The notes beneath the pieces are model-generated. The model saw only the letters and a program-made list of their open reading frames with translations, was not told the DNA's origin and searched no databases. Of a stretch of DNA of 64,000 nucleotides, positions 28,529 through 64,000 are shown one piece after another. The translations under genes and the position numbers were made by a program. Every line of letters begins with the position of its first letter. The stretch's first letter is position 1. The DNA is from Zygnema cylindricum (Eukaryota > Streptophyta > Zygnematophyceae > Zygnematales > Zygnemataceae), in assembly GCA_037447655.1 (NCBI GenBank), contig JBBHKE010001950.1, positions 1-64,000 of the forward strand. Reading direction: 5' to 3'.

Positions 28529-29840
28529 ATGCCAAGGATTCGAGGAGCAAAGTGGGAGCATGTTGTAACTCCAACGGGTGGTCTACTTGGGGATAATAAA
28601 TTGTGCATTTGTGTGTACTGCAAATTAAAGTATAATACACAAGCCACCAGGATTAGGAACCACCTTTTAGGAAACGTGAAGAATGTAGGAATCAGGCTAT
28701 GCAAATCATCTTCGGATTATGTGAAGCTAGAGTTAAGTGCAATGGAAATTGACAAGGCTTCTCACGAATCTCAAAAGCGTACAATATCTATTCCTGATCG
28801 ACTTACTGGAAGACTTGTCCCATCTAGCCATCTTGTCGAATCTAGCCAGAACAACAAGGTGAAAGGGGTGCAGACGGAAAATTTGGGATGATTTTAATAA
28901 GCGTAACCAGAAGCAGGTAGACAAAGCATGGGCCGAGGTATTATTTGCCAATGGCTTGCCATTCACTCTATTAACAGACCACTATTTCAAGGTTGCGGTA
29001 AAGTTGACTGCGGAGATAAAGGGAGTGTTATAAGCTACCCCACCTAGATGTCATGAGAACTCGTTTGTTGGGTGTGACTAAGGCGCCGATGACTAACGAT
29101 TTGCATAGTTACATGGAGACTATGAAAGTCACTGGTGCCAATGTCACATAGGATGGTTGGACAGTTGTTGACCAAACGCCTCTCCTCGACATTATAGCTG
29201 TCACCCTAAAGGGGGACATGTTTCTTATGGCGGAAAACACCCGTGGGCAATGCAAGGATGCCGAATATGTTCGTAAGGTGTTGGAGAAAAGAGTTCTTGC
29301 GGTAGGGCTGGAGCATGTGGTTCAAATTGTGACAGATTTTGCTCCTGTTAACAAAGCAACAAACTCCTTGCTCATGAGCAACTACCCTTATTTGACATGG
29401 ACGCCATGTTCTGCCCACATTTTGGACATGATGTTGGAGGATTGAGGCAAGTTGTCTTTTATCTCGACACATGTCAGAGAGGCAAAGGAGGTGTTGAGGT
29501 TTATCACAAACCACAATATGAAAGTAACCATCTTCAACAAAATCTCGACCCTCCGACTTTTGAAACCTGGAGAGACTCGGTTCGCGACAAACTTTATCAT
29601 GCTCCAAATGTTTTTAGAGGTGAAAGATTATTTAGGAGGGAGGTAACATTAGCGTGTGCTCAGATGATGCCAGCCTGGAATTGGTGGCAACGGTTTGGGG
29701 TTGTCACGCCTATCTTGCATAGGGTCGCAACTAGCGTCTTTGCCTAATGCTCAATAGCCAACTCATGTGAGAGGAATTGGTCAACGTATGACCATATTCA
29801 CTCTAAAAAATGGAACAGACTGACGGCTAAGAGGGTTAAT

Positions 29841-30062
29841 TGTTGACATACGTGAAACGTGCGCTCGATATCCGGAATTGTGGTAAAATCCACACTAAAA
29901 CCTATATAAAATTGGACCCACCAGCATAACATCTGAGCTGGTGGTACAATGGTTAGTACATTCACAGCTAAAGTGAAAGGTCCCTGGTTCAAATCTTGGC
30001 CGACTCATCAATCCATTTAATGGGATCGTCCATTCTATCCCCCGATTCTAGGAATCTTAACA
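29841..30062 (+). repeat. 5' LTR of the TRIM
   Basis: 222 bp, TG...CA ends. Contains TATATAAA at 29903-29910 and the tRNA-like unit at 29935-30007. CCACCAG (29919-29925) can pair with CTGGTGG (29938-29944), giving an alternative hairpin that would compete with the tRNA-like acceptor stem. Confidence 0.92.
29935..30007 (+). other. tRNA-like sequence in the 5' LTR
   Basis: 73 nt with standard cloverleaf spacing: acceptor 29935-29941 with 30000-30006 (6 of 7 pairs, one G-T), D stem GTAC/GTAC with an 8-nt loop, anticodon stem TTCAC/GTGAA with 7-nt loop AGCTAAA, 5-nt variable loop, T stem with loop TTCAAAT, and discriminator A. The A-box-like TGGTACAATGG and B-box-like GGTTCAAATC fit Pol III internal promoters. 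The nominal anticodon is CTA, but position 33 is G instead of the near-universal T. That argues against a normal decoding tRNA. D-arm and T-loop words resemble tRNA-Gln (recollection). Confidence 0.8.
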
Positions 30063-30127
30063 TGGTATCAAAGCCGAGGGACTAGGTTTACATGGACAAT
30101 TACGACCGGCTACCTCTCGTGGGGGGG

Positions 30128-30348
30128 TGTTGACGTACGTGAAACGTGCGCTCGATATCCAGAATTGTGGTAAATCCAAACTAAAAACTATATAAAATTG
30201 GACCCACCAGCATAACATCTGAACTGGTGGTACAGTGGTTAGTACATTCACAGCTAAAGTGAAAGGTCCCAGGTTCAAATCCTGACCGGCTCATCAATCC
30301 CTTTAATGAGATCGTCCATTCTATCCCCCGATTCTAGGAATATTAACA
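30128..30348 (+). repeat. 3' LTR of the TRIM
   Basis: 221 bp, TGTTGAC...TTAACA. Same layout as the 5' LTR, with its own TATATAAA and tRNA-like unit. The differences from the 5' LTR are mostly transitions, consistent with ageing after insertion. Confidence 0.92.
30221..30293 (+). other. tRNA-like sequence in the 3' LTR
   Basis: Second 73-nt cloverleaf. The A box TGGTACAGTGG and B box GGTTCAAATCC are each one base from the usual eukaryotic consensus (TGGCNNAGTGG, GGTTCGANTCC). The mispairs differ from those of the 5' copy: acceptor pair 3-70 here and 4-69 there, T-stem pair 49-65 here and 51-63 there. The common ancestor was therefore probably fully paired. The anticodon loop is the same (AGCTAAA). 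Confidence 0.8.
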
Positions 30349-30454
30349 TTAATGACCTGGTTCGGATCTTTAGCAATCTGAGGTTAACACATCAAACTAT
30401 AGATGTTAGCTATGAAGAGGCTATGATAGCATGGGAGGAAGAGGAAAGGGGGTT

Positions 30455-30670
30455 AGTGGGAGAGGAAGGGGGTGTAGTGGAAGAGGAGTTAGATCAAAAC
30501 ATGGATGATTTAGATTTAGAGTAGAGAGGTTAGAGGAAGGGGGTGTAGTGGAAGAGGAGTTAGATCAAAACATGGATGATTTAGATTTAGAGTATAGAGG
30601 TTAGAGGAAGGGGGTGTAGTGGAAGAGGAGTTAGATCAAAACATGGATGATTTAGATTTAGAGTAGAGAG
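30455..30670. repeat. 71-bp tandem triplication at the hAT 3' end
   Basis: Three near-identical copies of a unit containing GGAAGGGGGTGTAGTGGAAG and GATCAAAACATGGATGATTT, each ending TTTAGAGTA.AGAGGTTA. It duplicates the acidic C-terminal codons of the transposase frame (MDDLDLE). Confidence 0.9.
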
Positions 30671-31032
30671 GTTAATGGTGTAGTTCCATTCACGGTCGTT
30701 AATGACTTCACCAAAATTTTATGTGTAACTTTTGCCATTTCCTTTACAAGAATACAAAAACGGTTATTATTGCTTCAAGTAATAATTTACGTTTTTCAAT
30801 GTTAAAATCTTGTAACATGGCCATTTTTTGCTTAAATTGTCGATGTTAAAATATTATATGTTAGCATGCTGTATGGAGCCATGCTCTAATGCTGAACCAG
30901 CGACGAGGCAGCCTGATCGCTGACTGGTTGCTGACTGTTGGTTCACTGTTTCAGCGACGAGGGAGTCTGGTCGCTGGTTGCTGGTTCATTATTTCGGTCA
31001 TGAGGCACCGACGTTGCTGGTAAACTTTGGAG

Positions 31033-44499: not shown

Positions 44500-44830
44500 G
44501 GAGGAGACAGGGAGAGGGAGGGAGAGGCAGAGGGGAAGGAAGATGGAGAGGCAGAGGGGAAGGAAGAGGGAGAGGCAGAGGGGAAGGAAGAGGGAGAGGG
44601 AGAGGGAGAGGGGAAGGAAGAAGGAGAGAGAGGGGAGAGGGAAGAGAGGGGAGCGAGAGGGGGAAGAGAGGGGAGCGAGAGGGGGAAGAGAGGGAGAGGT
44701 AGAGGGAGAAGGAGAGAAGAGAGGTAAGGGAGAGGAGGACGGGGAGGGGGAAGGCAGAGGAGGGAGAGGGGAGGGCGAGAGAGGAGAAGGGGGGGGGGAG
44801 GGGGAGAAGAGAGAGGAGGAGACTCAGAGA
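44500..44830. repeat. GA-rich tract upstream of the transporter
   Basis: Plus-strand purine run of GGGAGAGG and GGAAGGAA units, some 330 bp. On the transporter's sense strand it is a CT tract that leads directly into CCCCTGTAG before the start codon, so it may serve as leader or intron polypyrimidine tract. Confidence 0.9.
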
Positions 44831-44929
44831 AGGAGATGGAAAGAGAGACATTTTGGGAAAATAAGGAGATTTCAAGAAATTTTAGGGGATTTCAGATTCT
44901 ACTAAGAGTGTTGTTCGTTCGTAGCCTGT

Positions 44930-45480
44930 GCCTCCCTCTGCCTCTCCTTTCACCTCCCCACCTCCCCCCTCTCCCTCCCTCCTTCTCCCTCCCTCTCCCT
45001 CCCTCCTTCTCCCTCCCTCTCCCTCCCTCTCCAAACTTCTCCCTCCCTACCTCTCTCCCTCCCTCCCTCCCTCCCCCTCCTCCTCCCCCTCCCTCTCCCT
45101 TTCCCTCCTTCCCTCCCTGTACCTTCTTCCCACCCTCTCTCTCCCCCCCTGTCGCTCCTCTCTCTCTATCACAGAGACACACAAACACACAACCACACTT
45201 GATCTTAAGTTCAGTTTCTTTCTTTCTCTCCGTCTCTCTCTCCCCCCTTCTCTCACTCTCTCTCTCTCTCCTCGCCCCCTCGGTCTCTGTCGATGTCCTT
45301 CTCTCCCTCCATATAATCCTCCCTGTCTCTCTCTCTCCTTGTCTCTCCTCCTTTACTCTTCTCACCTTATCTTCTTCACACTCTCCCTATCCCTATCCCT
45401 ACCTCTCCTCTTCCTCCCCCTCCATCCCCCCCCTATCCCTACCTCTCCTCTTCCTCTCCCTCCACCCCCCCCTACCTCTC
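44930..45480. repeat. CT-rich tract
   Basis: About 550 bp of CTCCCT and TCTCTC units on the plus strand, broken by CACACAAACACACAACCACA at 45178-45197. The strand bias is opposite to that of the adjacent block at 44500-44830, so the two can in principle pair as a very large imperfect inverted repeat. Confidence 0.9.
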
Positions 45481-46112
45481 CCCGCCCTATAAACCTACTC
45501 AAAATATTCCCTCGCTGCCAGCTGTCCTGCTCGGATCCATTCAGCCACGTGGAGCCACCAGGGAGAGGGAGGAGGAGAGGGAGGAGGAGAGGGAGGAGAG
45601 GGAGGGAGAGAGAGGGCTCAGCGAGGCAGCCATGGGCGGCTTAACAGGACAAACGAAGGAAGGAGACTCGCTTCCGTACAATTTCCGTACGATCCACCAT
45701 GGCCGGCGAGGGATCTACCTGGAAGATTCGGCCGGACAGCCATGGCGCCACTGTACGGCGCAGGGAGGGGCGAGGAGCGGCCATGGGGGGGGATCACGAC
45801 GTCGAGGGGGGGGGGAGGGAGAGAGAGGGAGAGGGACAGGAAAAATACATGGCGGAGGAGACGTGAGACAGAAGGAAGAGGAAGACGAGAGGGAGGGGAG
45901 AGGGAGTGAGAGGGAGAGAAGAGACAGGAGAAAAGGAATGAATAAATGAATGAGATATTGATTCGGACATTGACAAACTGTACGGAAAGTACAAATGGTA
46001 CGGAAATAAAAGTACGGACAGTTTGAAATGTACGGACAGTAATTGTAATTCCAGTTTACGAACGCGTAGGACATCCGTAGTTCCGTACGGTATGAAAAGG
46101 AAAGGTTTGCGG
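45481..46112. other. GA-rich and GTAC-rich spacer
   Basis: Further GA-rich runs at 45560-45620 and 45805-45935. Between them is GC-rich sequence with three CCATGG-type motifs. From 45960 to 46090 there are about seven copies of GTACGGA or TACGGAAAGTAC-like words. No gene recognised. A transporter 5' exon or promoter may lie here. Confidence 0.5.
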
Positions 46113-58200: not shown

Positions 58201-58773
58201 TGTTAAAATTTTGTGTCCAATTCCTCCTAAGAACCAGAAGTCAAAGTCAGTCAAAGTGACTTGAGAGAAGTCAACTGAAGTCATGTTAGGTTCATGTAGG
58301 TTGAGTAGACGTCAAAATTTGTGTAGACGTCAAGCATACTTTGCGTAGACGTCAAGTTAAGCGAAACGTAATTGTTTACGTCTACTGTACGGCAAGTACA
58401 AAGTGTCGCAGATTTTGAGTAAATGTCACGTAGTGAATTACGGCCGTTGATTTTGTTTACGTAGTTCACAAGTTAGGAATTTGTTCCTTTACGTGATAAA
58501 CAAGTAGCGTAGTACCTACGTCACCTACACATATAAAATGTACTTCATGCTGTACTTCATGCTGGACATTGAAAATCAATCATCAAGTGAATGATTCTCT
58601 CCAATTTTTCCCTACTGCTATTTTTGCACTGAGTGCTTATTTTGTCGTGGAATTAATCTATCTTTTTTCTTGTTCAGTAATTAAGCTTTGCTTTCTCATA
58701 TAAAGAATTGTTTTCCTTAGCTTCCTCTCTTGTAATTGGTCGATCCTATAGCCACTTCTTCAGAATCTCAACA
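58201..58773 (+). repeat. 5' LTR of the Copia element
   Basis: 573 bp starting TGTTAAAATTTTGTG. Contains many TAGACGTCAA repeats (58305-58350). The Gag frame begins inside this LTR: the 3' LTR has ATGGCCACTTCTTC where the 5' LTR has ATAGCCACTTCTTC (58748). Confidence 0.92.
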
Positions 58774-59620
58774 TGGTATCAGAGCTTTAGGTAAAAATAC
58801 AGACATCCATAAATTTAATGGAAGAAATTATTTACTGTGGAAAGCTAAGAGTACCCGAATTCTAAAGTTTAAAAATTACTGGGGTATTGTTGCAGACACA
58901 GAACAAAAACCTACTGAAGCCCAAAAGGCAGCAAGATATGATAGAAGGGAAGAAGAGGCAGCGACATTAATTTTTCTAGCAGTGGAAGACGGTCAACTTT
59001 TACACATAGTTGAGTTGGGTAAACCTAAGGCTATGTGGGATAAACTAAGGACAGTACATAAGCGTACTAATCCGTCCAATAATATGCAATTAAAGAACAA
59101 ATTGTTGGACTTTAGTATGGAGAGTGGAGATACTATGGAAACCCATATCAATAGACTGAAAGAGCTTAAGTTACACTTAGCCGCAGTCGCCACAAAACTG
59201 AATGATGATGATTTGACTCTCACACTGTTTAGGTCATTACCATCACAATATGCTATGGTGATCACGGCTTTGAAAAGTCAACCTACTATAGACTTTGCTG
59301 CAATATGTCAGCATTTCAAGAAGTAGTTGAAATTAAAAGAAAGGAAGAAAAAGAGTCAGATGCAGCTTATTATGCCAAAGGCAAACAGTCAGTAAAACAA
59401 ACTAAGTTAGTAAGTGCTTGTGCTATATGTGGAAAAAACCAATCATCAGACTGCTAACTGTAGATTCAAAAAGAAAAGACTGAAAACTTCAAGAAAAAGA
59501 TTGTTTGTTATAGTTGTGGAAAACCAAGTCATAAGTCTTCAGTTTGTCGTAGTAAAGACAAAAACAAACAAAACAAACCATCTTTTGCCATGACCATTCA
59601 AGATGAGATTAATCTTTTTC
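58748..59620 (+). pseudogene. Copia Gag (UBN2-type) with two zinc knuckles, broken
   Basis: The frame runs from the LTR through the PBS (TSSESQHGIRALGKN) into HKFNGRNYLLWKAKSTRILK and MWDKLRTVHKR, typical Copia Gag. The start codon is ATA in this copy. A TAG at 59324 is a frameshift: the next frame continues EVVEIKRKEEKESDAAYYAK. Knuckle one is CAIC...NHQTANC with a one-base shift inside. Knuckle two is CYSCGKPSHKSSVC (CX2CX4HX4C). Confidence 0.88.
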
Positions 59621-61985
59621 TCACACGGTCTAATGCTTAGAAAATCAAATGAATTATAGATTCTGGAGCGTCTCATCATATGTGTAATGATAAGTCCATC
59701 TTTTCTTCTCTCACAAGGTTACAAGGTCCTCGACGAATCATACTTGCAGTTGATGAGATTCTAGAAACCAGTTTAATGGGCGAGGTTAAGTTATAGTTAT
59801 AATGTGATACTGGTAGCTATGAAGGGCATCAAAAAGAAATTTTATACTTACCAAGTTTAAAACATAACCTTTTTAGCGTTATGCATGCTGTGAGGAGTGG
59901 ACTAAAAGTTGAATTTGAGAAAAAGAAAAACGAACGTTTTGAAATTAAGAGTGAGTGAAAGCTAATCGCTCTTCGATATCTGGAAGGGAATATTTTTACT
60001 CTACGTTTGGATGATGAAGATGCACAGATGAATTTCATCAAAGAAGCACAAACTTTGGAGCTATGGCATCAACGATTTGGTCATCTGGGAGAGCAAAATC
60101 TTAAACGACTCATTGAAAAGAAGATGGTCAGACGAGTTGAGGATGTCAACGCTAAAGACAAGCTTAAGGTGTGTGAAGGATGCGCTCAAGGTAAGCAAAA
60201 AATGCTTTCTTTTCATAAAGATGATGAACCCAAAAATAGAAGGAAGTTGGAACTTATTCATTCTGACTTGAGCGGTCCTCACCCCTTAAGTCTTGCAGGT
60301 TCTAGATTTTTCATCACGTTTACGGATGAGTGCACTAGAAAAGTATGGGTGTATTTTATGAAATCCAAAGGAGAAGCCCTTAAGAAATTGAGAGAGTTCA
60401 AAACCATGGTAAAAAATCAGGCAAGAGAAGCAGATCCAGATTTTAAGGTCGGATAATGGGGGGGGATATACCTCCAATGCTTTTAAGGAAAACTGTAAAA
60501 CTTGGGGGATACAACAAGAATTCACAGTAGCTTATAGTCCGCAGCAAAATGGAGTATCAGAAAGACTGAACTGAACTTTGGTTGAAATTGCACGTTGTTT
60601 AGTACATAATGCAAAACTTAATCAAAACCTATGGCCTGAAGCTATCCTTACTGCAATTATTTGAAAAATCGTTCTCCTAGTACTTCTCTACAAGATATTA
60701 CACCCAAAGAAGCTTGGTCAGGCTTTAGACCAAATGTTAAACATTTTAAAGTGTTTGGAAGTAAAACCTTTGTTCACATCCTAGCACAGAATAGAAAGAA
60801 ATTTGACAAGAAGAGTTGGACTGGTGTCTTTGTACGTTATGACATAAATAGAAAAGCTTACAAAATTTATGACCCAGCTACGCAGAAAATTCATGTCAGT
60901 CGAGATGTGACTGTGGATGAAGGGAAAGAGAGTAGTTTAGATGAGACAAATAATGTTGACCCTTGGTATGAAGAACCAGGGACTGTCACTTTTCCCTATA
61001 ACAATCAAGAAGAATTGGAAAGTGGGTCTCCACAGACGCCAAGTACTCTAGGCAGAGAACACGAAGTGGAGCCTTCGTCATCCACACTAATTTCCATTCC
61101 AATTCAGACTTCCGTCATCCTTAGTGGAACATCAACCTTTCAATCTTTACCAGTGGAGAAGTTACCAAAACCACAACCTTCGCAAATTACAACCTCTCGA
61201 ATCCGATCCACCAGTCGAGATTGAAGGTAACCCCTCAAAAAGTCTCTAATCGAATACGTGCTAAACCAAAACTACTGATTGAAGAAACGAGAGATATGGG
61301 TTTAGCTTATTGCTTAATGGCGGCAGAGGGGGAACCGCAAACCTTTCATGAAGCTTTGGAGAGTTCTAATTCTCAAAAATGGAAGGAGGCAATAGAATTA
61401 GAATATGAATCACTGATCAAAAACAAAACTTGGACCTTAGTAGAACACCTAGAAGAAAAAAACATTGTGGGGTGTAAATGGGTCTTTAAGATTAAGAGGA
61501 AATCAGATGGATCAGTGGAAAGATATAAAGCGAGGTTGGTAGCTGAGGGGTATTCACATGAAAAGGGGGTTGATTGTTATGATTTGGTAATGAGAACTCT
61601 TTTAGCGCTGAGTCATTCTCGTAGCTAAATAGTGAAGTTTAATAGTCTGCGAAGTTTAATAGCCTTAGGAGCAGCGGGTATGCAGATGCATCAACTAGAT
61701 ATCATAAGTGCATTCTTTAATGGGGATTTAGTGGAAAAAGTCTACATGGAACATCTAGAAGGCATGATAGAACCTGGAAAAGAACTGATGGTTTGTAAAC
61801 TACACAAATCCATATACAGTCTAAAACAAAGCCCTAGGTGTTGGAAGATCAAACTTGAAACCAAAATGAGAGAAGAGGCCTTTGAGAGATGTCATGGAGA
61901 CGGCGACCTCGACACAAGGAGGAGCATTACCGATTGGATTTTTCATGTGTACAAGAAGACCCATCAGTTAAAGAGAAAAAATTGA
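59621..61985 (+). pseudogene. Copia Pol (protease, integrase, partial RT), broken
   Basis: Protease DSGASHHMC at about 59660. GAG-pre-integrase LWHQRFGHLGEQNLKRL with CEGC (60060-60185). Integrase core IHSDLSGPHPLSL, a frameshift before SDNGGGYTSNAF (about 60450), YSPQQNGVSERLN then a stop in place of Arg, and KNRSPSTSLQDITPKEAW. RT starts WKEAIELEYESLIKNKTWTL, then KARLVAEGYSHEKGVD, a break at 61625, then HQLDIISAFFNGDLVEKVYM and SIYSLKQSPRCWK. The YVDD box and RNase H are missing. Confidence 0.88.
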
Positions 61986-62084
61986 AAAGAAAAGTTTAAA
62001 ATTTGATTTTGAATCAGCTCACAGGAGTTGGTCCTATTTAGTGAGGAAAATTGATAGTATGCAGAAAATGAACCAGAGAGGGGG

Positions 62085-62647
62085 TGTTAAAATTTTGTGT
62101 CCATTTCGTGCTAAGGACCAGAAGTCAAAGTTAGTCAAAATGACGTGAGAGAGAAGTCAACCGAAGTCCTGTTAGGTTCATGTACGGTTGAGTAGACGTC
62201 AAAATTTGTGTAGACGTCAAGCATACTTATCGTAGACGTCAAGTTAAGCGAAACGTAATTGTTTACGTCTATTGTACGGCAAGTACAAAATGTCGCAGAT
62301 TTTGAGTAAATCTCACAAAGTGAATTGTGACCGTTGATTTTGTTTACGTAGTTCACAAGTTAGGAATTTGTTCCTTTACGTGTTAAACAAGTAGCGTAAT
62401 ACCTACGTCACCTACACATATAAAATTTACTCATGCTGGACATTGAAAATCAATCATCAAGTGAATGATTCTCTCCAATTTTTCCCTATTGCTATTTTTG
62501 CACTGAGTGCTTATTTTGTCGTGGATTTAATCAATCTTCTTTCTTGTTTAGTAATTAAGCTTTGCTTTCTCATATAGAGAATTGTTTTCCTTAGCTTCCT
62601 GTCTTGTAATTGGACGATCCTATGGCCACTTCTTCTGAATCTCAACA
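62085..62647 (+). repeat. 3' LTR of the Copia element
   Basis: 563 bp with several substitutions and short indels relative to the 5' LTR. It retains the intact ATG of the Gag start (62621-62623). Confidence 0.92.
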
Positions 62648-63339: not shown

Positions 63340-64000
63340 CGAGGCTTTTCCAAAGAGGCAATTTCTCTTCCAGGAATTCATTCAATTTCGATTCAAGGAA
63401 AATGAATATATCGACGATGCAGTGAAAAGGTTTAATATTCTTGTGGAGCAACTAACCAATCTTGGACGAATGTTAGACGAAGACCACAAGTTGCATGTGT
63501 TCTTCAACAGTCTTCCGGAGTACCTTCGTACTCCGAGTGACATTATTCAATCAAAGAAAAGGGCTTCGTACAAATACGCGGTGAGTTACTTAATGAGGGT
63601 GGATAAGACGAGAGATGGAAAAAGTAGAGGAGTGAAGGAATCAGTTGCATTTAGTGAATCTGCCCCTCTTAATATTGCCACAGATGCGGCTTTGAATTTA
63701 CTCAATAGAAGAGGGGGTGGTAGATATTTTAGAGGTAGAGGCGGTAGTGGTAGAGGAGGTAGAGGAGGCATGCAGAATGCAGGTGGTAGTGACAGTCAGA
63801 CTGATGCTCATGTGACATGCTACAAATGTCAAAAATTGGGACATTTTGCAGCAGATTGTTCGGATCATCAAAAACTCTGCGTCAGCGATGGGGACATGTT
63901 AGTACACAATGTTTTGATAGAAGTGAATGGAACTTAGAAAGAGGGGGAAGAGGCGGTCGTGGTCGTGGTTTTGGTCGCGTAAATGGTCGAGGAGGAAGCC
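63340..64000 (+). pseudogene. Second Copia Gag, partial (runs off the window)
   Basis: Reads FQEFIQFRFKENEYIDDAVK, then RFNILVEQLTNLGRMLDEDH, FNSLPEYLRTP, an Arg/Gly-rich stretch and a zinc knuckle CYKCQKLGHFAADC (CX2CX4HX4C). This sequence is clearly different from the Gag of the element at 58201. A frameshift after the knuckle puts a second Gly/Arg-rich segment (GGRGRGFGRVNGRGG) in another frame at the window edge. No start codon or 5' LTR is identified. Confidence 0.8.

Follow-up and report, generated by a model that had tools for sequence, protein, structure and literature searches.

A Helenus-type TRIM retrotransposon family with a tRNA-like unit in its LTRs in the genome of Zygnema cylindricum

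The TRIM element and its insertion site

The window analysed here is the whole stretch of 64,000 nucleotides from contig JBBHKE010001950.1 of Zygnema cylindricum. It contains a TRIM element of 508 bp without protein-coding capacity for mobility (Table 1), and no ORF of at least 120 aa was found inside it. The preliminary description of this DNA had reported a complete LTR element with LTRs of the TG...CA type, a primer-binding site (PBS), a purine tract and a perfect TTAAT duplication, all of which were confirmed. The PBS TGGTATCAAAGC is presumably that for initiator tRNA-Met. Between the two LTRs 13 substitutions and 1 indel column were counted (5.9% difference).

The TRIM was inserted into a relic of a hAT-like transposon. 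When the two flanks were joined over one TTAAT, an open hAT-like C-terminal frame was regained, so that the boundaries of the TRIM are supported independently of its LTRs. The joined flanks matched the Pfam domain Dimer_Tnp_hAT with an E-value of 0.0067, which lies below the curated cut-off and is weak support. A short way downstream of the TRIM, a 71-bp unit is repeated in three tandem copies that are 99-100% alike.

Table 1. Positions of the TRIM element, its parts and further features in the 64,000-nt window.
Feature	Position	Strand	Basis or remark
hAT-like transposon relic, recipient of the TRIM	28529-29835 and 30354-30460		
Target-site duplication, 5' copy, TTAAT	29836-29840	.	sequence
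TRIM element, 508 bp	29841-30348		
5' LTR, 222 bp, TG...CA	29841-30062	+	LTR comparison
TATATAAAA of 5' LTR	29903-29911	+	first base 32 nt upstream of tRNA-like unit
Leader 12-mer	29914-29925	+	potential partner of unit positions 3-10 and 46-49; lead only
tRNA-like unit of 5' LTR, 73 nt	29935-30007	+	Rfam tRNA 42.6 bits; 19/21 stem pairs
A-box-like motif, 5' LTR unit	29942-29952	+	
B-box-like motif, 5' LTR unit	29987-29995	+	
Primer-binding site TGGTATCAAAGC	30063-30074	+	11/12 bases shared with TGGTATCAGAGC of the window Copia
Internal region, 65 bp	30063-30127	+	start TGGTATCAAAGC, end GTGGGGGGG
Purine tract GTGGGGGGG, one T excepted	30119-30127	+	ahead of 3' LTR
3' LTR, 221 bp, TG...CA	30128-30348	+	LTR comparison
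TATATAAAA of 3' LTR	30189-30197	+	sequence
tRNA-like unit of 3' LTR, 73 nt	30221-30293	+	Rfam tRNA 45.8 bits; 19/21 stem pairs
Target-site duplication, 3' copy, TTAAT	30349-30353	.	sequence
71-bp unit, three tandem copies	30461-30674		99-100% alike
MFS transporter, open 502 aa	42984-44492	-	PDB relatives
CT/GA-rich low-complexity stretch	44500-45600		
Copia retrotransposon, broken frames	58201-62647		LTRs 573 and 563 bp
ORF with CCHC zinc knuckle	63422-63937		probably gag fragment

The tRNA-like unit in the window

A 73-nt cloverleaf with A- and B-box-like motifs had been proposed for each LTR, and this was borne out. Both units matched the Rfam tRNA model RF00005 end to end at scores above its gathering score of 29 bits (Table 1), with whole-window E-values of 1.1e-5 for the 5' unit and 1.4e-6 for the 3' unit. 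Among the 14 matches listed in a window-wide Rfam scan (E up to 1), only the two TRIM units reach the family cut-off; a fast scan of the whole window listed the 3' unit alone. ARAGORN likewise detected the 3' unit in the element and missed the 5' unit, and it reported 1 tRNA per 4000 dinucleotide shuffles of the element. The combined A-box and B-box pattern occurs 2 times in the window, both in the TRIM, with a mean of 0.225 occurrences in shuffled sequences of 64 kb (40 shuffles).

None of the 21 stem positions is unpaired in both LTRs, which is what decay after insertion would leave of a fully paired source. The minimum-energy fold of the isolated unit was a cloverleaf for the 3' unit and not for the 5' unit. 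An Rfam search (E up to 1) of positions 29700-30500 gave no 5S match. Short matches were obtained in 8 plasmid records (best E 0.5), no phage record with the 5' unit was found, and one 26-nt pattern gave 0 matches in viral contigs. Self-priming by the unit was ruled out, since its 3' end agrees with the complement required by the element's own PBS at 2 of 12 positions and the best-matching stretch at 6 of 12.

The family in the host genome

The host assembly searched comprised 352.8 Mb in 2689 contigs. With the element as query, at least 49 matches were obtained from the best 40 of 748 candidates scored, and at least 46 of them are near full length. Apart from the window's own match, the near-full-length matches show 85-93% identity, and some of them overlap within tandem LTR-internal-LTR arrays. 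Capture of a tRNA in one single copy was ruled out by these near-full-length matches together with the search with U3 alone described below. A divergent copy used as query led mostly to known places and additionally to two new copies (L048 and L049), both of which carry the tRNA-like unit in both LTRs. Duplications of 5 bp, which had been proposed as a check on other copies, are perfect at 23 of 39 loci when the best of +/-3 offsets per end is taken; one of the 23 (L040) lacks the TG start.

For the alignment, 84 LTRs were extracted, 2 from the window and 82 from 38 loci. L047, which is identical to L046, and two short LTR hits (up to about 100 nt) were excluded, while L027 and L029 represent a single duplicated insertion that is counted twice. 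The tRNA-like unit with all four arms is present in 84/84 LTRs (with 3-10 gap positions inside it in 5 of them), and pairing is retained in 1672 of the 1758 stem cells. Copies without the unit or its pairing, which had been named as the observation that would make the unit a chance capture, were thus not encountered in this set, and the description as a miniature element whose LTRs both hold a tRNA-type unit is upheld at the level of the family. Strict matches were obtained to both boxes in 52 LTRs, to the A box only in 22, to the B box only in 8 and to neither in 2.

In the 72 distinct rows of the alignment 94.4% of the cells are paired, as compared with 27-38% when the partners were slid, and 0/500 column shuffles reached as high a value. 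For 18 hand-chosen units the value was 95.2%, again with 0/500 shuffles as high. In these 18 units the number of cells changed on both sides (1/500 as high) and the covariation score (0/500) lay above the shuffles; the 2 pairs changed on both sides (142/500 as high) and the 13 further pair types (453/500) did not. The 43 internal regions start with TGGTATCAAAGC in 16 cases and with TGGTATCGGAGC in 12, and end with CGAGGGGGGG in 28.

Near-intact copies reach Rfam scores of up to 56.6 bits. For 8 chosen loci with 19 LTRs, the fast Rfam scan listed 12 units at 53.4 to 56.6 bits and left 7 unlisted (1 of L009, 3 of L018 and 3 of L046). RNA from the first base of the unit to the end of the LTR was predicted to fold into the cloverleaf in L009, L013 and L042, and not in the 3' LTR of the window. 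ARAGORN called a tRNA in 65 of the 84 LTRs, 35 with CTT and 27 with CTA. Working tRNAs carry U at position 33. This position of the unit is G in 76/84 LTRs, and decoding is therefore unlikely.

Because the first query contained the unit, its presence in those matches results partly from selection. A query of 93 bp from U3 only was used as well, for which the best 40 of 311 candidates were scored and gave 42 places, 25 in known loci and 17 in 14 new regions. In 13 of the new regions the unit adjoins U3, and in the other (L056) its first 20 nt remain, followed by a deletion. One further LTR, in L059, retains only the 3' end of the unit. Across the U3-search regions 276 of 291 stem cells are paired in the 14 units measured. 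No LTR without any trace of the unit was found among the best-scored 40 of 311 U3 candidates, and an empty LTR ancestor was discarded as an explanation of L056 and L059, as both are deletions that retain one end. L059 also contains a repeat about 1.66 kb apart.

Subfamilies, arrays and age

Two subfamilies were distinguished. Type A comprises 30 LTRs including those of the window, mostly with T11-A24, an 8-base D-loop and CTA (29/30). Type B comprises 54 LTRs, mostly with C11-G24, a 7-base D-loop and CTT (40/54) or CTA (11/54). Their majority bases differ at 6 of 73 unit positions versus 1 of 149 positions elsewhere in the LTR (Fisher p 0.006; 0.015 without the sorting column). The 11-24 change in the D stem is compensated and may represent one evolutionary event. 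On a tree of the LTR minus the unit (149 columns; 4/75 inner branches starred) the 11-24 pair has to switch type no fewer than 9 times, which may be due to recombination or to poor resolution.

Divergence between the LTRs ranges from 0 to 19.5% in 34 two-LTR elements. The LTRs of L013 and L016 are identical, and the family has therefore been active recently, unless gene conversion made these LTRs alike. Tandem arrays with three or four TRIM LTRs were observed in L018, L019, L044 and L046, and type A and type B units are mixed inside one array in L019 and in L044. Judged by the D-loop column, the two LTRs are of different types in L022, L030 and L039, in the last through a deletion; for L022 and L030 this suggests recombination or template switching. 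L046 and L047 (C931, about 9 kb apart) are identical over 1094-bp stretches, each with a three-LTR array, and are evidently a local duplication.

Transcription of the element

The window TRIM is one decayed copy of a multi-copy Helenus-type family, and we consider it fairly probable that the RNA of this family is started by Pol III. TFIIIC would bind the A and B boxes and, aided by the TATA 32 nt upstream, would recruit the host RNA polymerase III. Transcription would begin in the 5' LTR, on or close to the first base of its unit, and this base would be the start of R; the polymerase would read through the element, TTTT-free in the window copy. A Copia-type element would then package the RNA and copy it in trans, with priming by initiator tRNA-Met. 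An RNA 3' end past the 3' LTR would be harmless, as the second R offers strong-stop DNA an internal site for annealing. The unit would serve as promoter and as marker of the start of R, not as a decoding tRNA. For an LTR element to replicate, transcription has to begin in the 5' LTR and the RNA has to include a second R further on (PMC10886601). An RNA of this kind would result if Pol III started at base 1 and met no terminator. The PBS of the TRIM and that of the window Copia have most bases in common (Table 1), and Copia elements in general make 5-bp duplications, like the TRIM family (PMC10886601).

In 72/84 family LTRs the first base of the TATA lies exactly 32 nt before the unit. Plant tRNA genes have a TATA at such an upstream spacing. 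The placement of TATATAAAA at the position used by plant tRNA genes, as put forward earlier, stands as far as the distance is concerned, but the spacing fits Pol II as well as Pol III. The second argument, the lack of TTTT, is correct for the plus strand of the window element. However, one LTR plus the internal part lacks TTTT in 62% of dinucleotide and 38% of mononucleotide shuffles, so that the missing TTTT is weak evidence for Pol III and was set aside. Among 287-nt segments of the surrounding region 14% are without TTTT, and the motif is present in 16/84 family LTRs. Pol III use is plausible from the sequence features taken together. Against it stand the boxes, both of which are strictly intact in only 52/84 LTRs, and the conservation of the unit, which is no better than that of its LTR surroundings.

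The main competitor, unlikely but to be taken seriously, is an ordinary Pol II LTR in which TATATAAAA would drive a start about 30 bp downstream that coincides with the start of the unit. The unit would then open R and act, if at all, as an RNA structure in stability, packaging, strong-stop transfer or systemic movement; tRNA-like sequences have been reported to confer systemic movement on plant mRNAs. The fixed distance of the TATA in 72/84 LTRs agrees with such a start, as does the retention of the complete fold, beyond the boxes, by type A and type B alike, whose D stems differ by a compensated pair. Moreover, the base-1 RNA of the near-intact copies L009, L013 and L042 would form the cloverleaf to the LTR end, the window 3' unit doing so only when alone. 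The A and B boxes, however, suit Pol III equally, and a free cloverleaf at an RNA 5' end would be open to cleavage by RNase Z.

Conservation and origin of the unit

Pairs of LTRs differ on average by 0.101 within the unit, by 0.137 within U3, by 0.115 within the leader and by 0.066 within the tail. The unit does not stand out by stronger conservation from the rest of the LTR taken together. In the window pair, 6 of the 13 substitutions fall inside the unit, which makes up a third of the LTR, so that no protection of the unit after insertion is apparent. Evidence of constraint is indirect and no proof: the fold is intact in both subfamilies though host tRNAs are distant. The closest host tRNA shows 72% identity to the unit among 58 ARAGORN calls at 50 loci (34 distinct sequences; one artefactual intron-spanning call at 0.836 excluded). 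These calls come from 63 Rfam matches scored among 24620 candidates, with 50 of the 63 places examined as loci, and cover Lys, Gln, Asn, Arg, Trp, Cys, Phe and CTA only, many isotypes being missing. We take the host tRNA genes compared to be of plant type. No parent tRNA was named from this sample, in which the best identity is 72% and the isotypes are incomplete.

It is quite improbable that the unit is a functionless passenger, descended from a single insertion of a SINE or a tRNA copy into the LTR of an otherwise ordinary TRIM and copied along since then. A SINE insertion is the origin of Helenus proposed by Kojima (PMC10886601), and conservation not above that of the surrounding LTR is in keeping with it. 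A passenger fits poorly with four stems kept in both subfamilies at such a distance from the host tRNAs (72% at best, isotypes incomplete) and with D-stem pairing preserved through the subfamily differences, and both LTRs without a full unit are deletions that retain one end.

The predicted pairing of the leader 12-mer GGACCCACCAGC (Table 1) with unit positions 3-10 and 46-49 was noticed after the fact. It is kept in 950 of 1004 cells versus 26-42% when slid. In the 5 copies folded, the acceptor pair probability without the leader was 0.99-1.0 in four and 0.80-0.91 in the fifth, and with the leader it was 0.0 in all. Shuffled leaders reached as low an energy in 30 to 67 cases per 1000 (3.0-6.7%), and no covariation was found between the leader 12-mer and its unit partner. 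From these folding models a conditional tRNA fold could be envisaged that is itself under selection, beyond the Pol III boxes, with a cloverleaf on the base-1 RNA that pairing of the leader with the acceptor and variable region would abolish in the 3' copy or in RNA started upstream. We regard this as very doubtful. If true, the tRNA mimic would be displayed only at a genuine 5' end, where it could serve in packaging, in movement or in contacts with tRNA-binding proteins, and the 3' LTR copy would be hidden from RNase P and RNase Z.

A chance resemblance to tRNA in one copy, for which only the failure of ARAGORN on the 5' unit could be adduced, was practically ruled out by the window E-values (1.4e-6 and 1.1e-5), by the rate of 1 ARAGORN tRNA in 4000 shuffles and by the family alignment, in which 84/84 LTRs carry the unit.

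Relation to known elements

The absence of any described tRNA-bearing TRIM family, as stated in the preliminary description, has to be withdrawn. Kojima (2024; PMC10886601) described Helenus, TRIMs with a tRNA-derived sequence in the LTRs, from fungi, animals and one plant, and proposed promotion by Pol III and the name TRIMp3. The Zygnema TRIM is a further Helenus family, of a kind known since 2024. Like Helenus, the window element is a TRIM of less than 1000 bp with two LTRs, without mobility coding sequence and with an internal region that has a PBS at one end and a purine tract at the other. A tRNA-derived sequence with A and B boxes lies in both of its LTRs and in 84/84 family LTRs. The 5-bp duplications of plant and fungal Helenus correspond to TTAAT here and are perfect at 23/39 loci, and the family is multi-copy, with at least 46 near-full-length matches from the best 40 of 748 candidates. 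Predictions of the CTA type also occur in Uromyces and Cronartium families (PMC10886601).

According to the same paper, most Helenus members have a box A with TRGCY and YGG and a box B with GGTTC. GGTTC and TGG are present in the Zygnema unit, whereas its box A reads TGGCA in type B and TGGTA in type A and does not follow TRGCY letter for letter; the paper's wording is 'most'. The only plant family in Kojima's table, Helenus-1_SMo of Selaginella moellendorffii, has LTRs of 120 bp, an internal region of 85 bp and 5-bp duplications, and is set apart from the window element (222 and 65 bp) by the dimensions of LTR and internal region (PMC10886601). As 22 Helenus families (7 bivalve and 15 fungal) are predicted to encode a tRNA, the complete fold is not unique to the Zygnema family. 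In the account given there, the predicted structures in general do not support tRNA function, many families show isotype disagreement or a non-working tRNA, and the tRNA-derived part is likewise unfit for the element's own PBS (PMC10886601).

Both LTRs of Cassandra, a TRIM of land plants, also contain a unit derived from a Pol III gene, and Cassandra likewise has a PBS of the TGGTATCAGAGC type and tandem LTR-internal-LTR arrays; in contrast, its unit is 5S and not tRNA, and it has Pol III terminators where the window copy has no TTTT (PMC7215508, PMC10853983). The tRNA-derived SINEs (SINE2) share a tRNA-derived Pol III promoter and the nature of a short non-coding retroelement. Unlike the window element with its LTRs, PBS and 5-bp duplication, SINEs lack LTRs and PBS and are moved by non-LTR retrotransposons (PMC10886601). 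The plant TRIMs of Gao et al. (2016; PMC4717578), 156 families, are alike in size class, structure and tandem arrays, and the word tRNA is absent from the main text of that article. The passages concerned in a maize survey (PMC2774510) deal with SINEs. In the open-licence PMC literature no later study of Helenus or TRIMp3 was found, apart from a mention in a 2026 meeting report (PMC12859917), and among the papers listed there no other tRNA-bearing TRIM was found by title or opening of the abstract; reports elsewhere are possible.

The present family adds a well-populated Helenus family in plants, for which Kojima's table has one species (PMC10886601). Since a single 353-Mb genome holds near-intact copies next to decayed ones, as well as two subfamilies, the idea that TRIMs can be transcribed by Pol III can be tested directly. 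For genome annotation, it should be noted that ARAGORN calls LTRs of this TRIM family as tRNA genes (65/84).

Other features in the window

The Copia retrotransposon (Table 1) has LTRs that are 90-95% alike by segment, the PBS TGGTATCAGAGC, which we take to be of plant type, and pieces of gag, pre-integrase, SH3 and RT that are spread over different ORFs; its LTRs gave no tRNA match. The ORF with a CCHC zinc knuckle, at the end of the window, probably represents part of the gag of a further Copia-like element. The open MFS transporter frame contains glycine runs, has sialin and vesicular glutamate transporters as PDB relatives and presumably resembles the plant PHT4 proteins. The CT/GA-rich low-complexity stretch contains numerous ORFs that overlap, on both strands, and Rfam miRNA matches below threshold.
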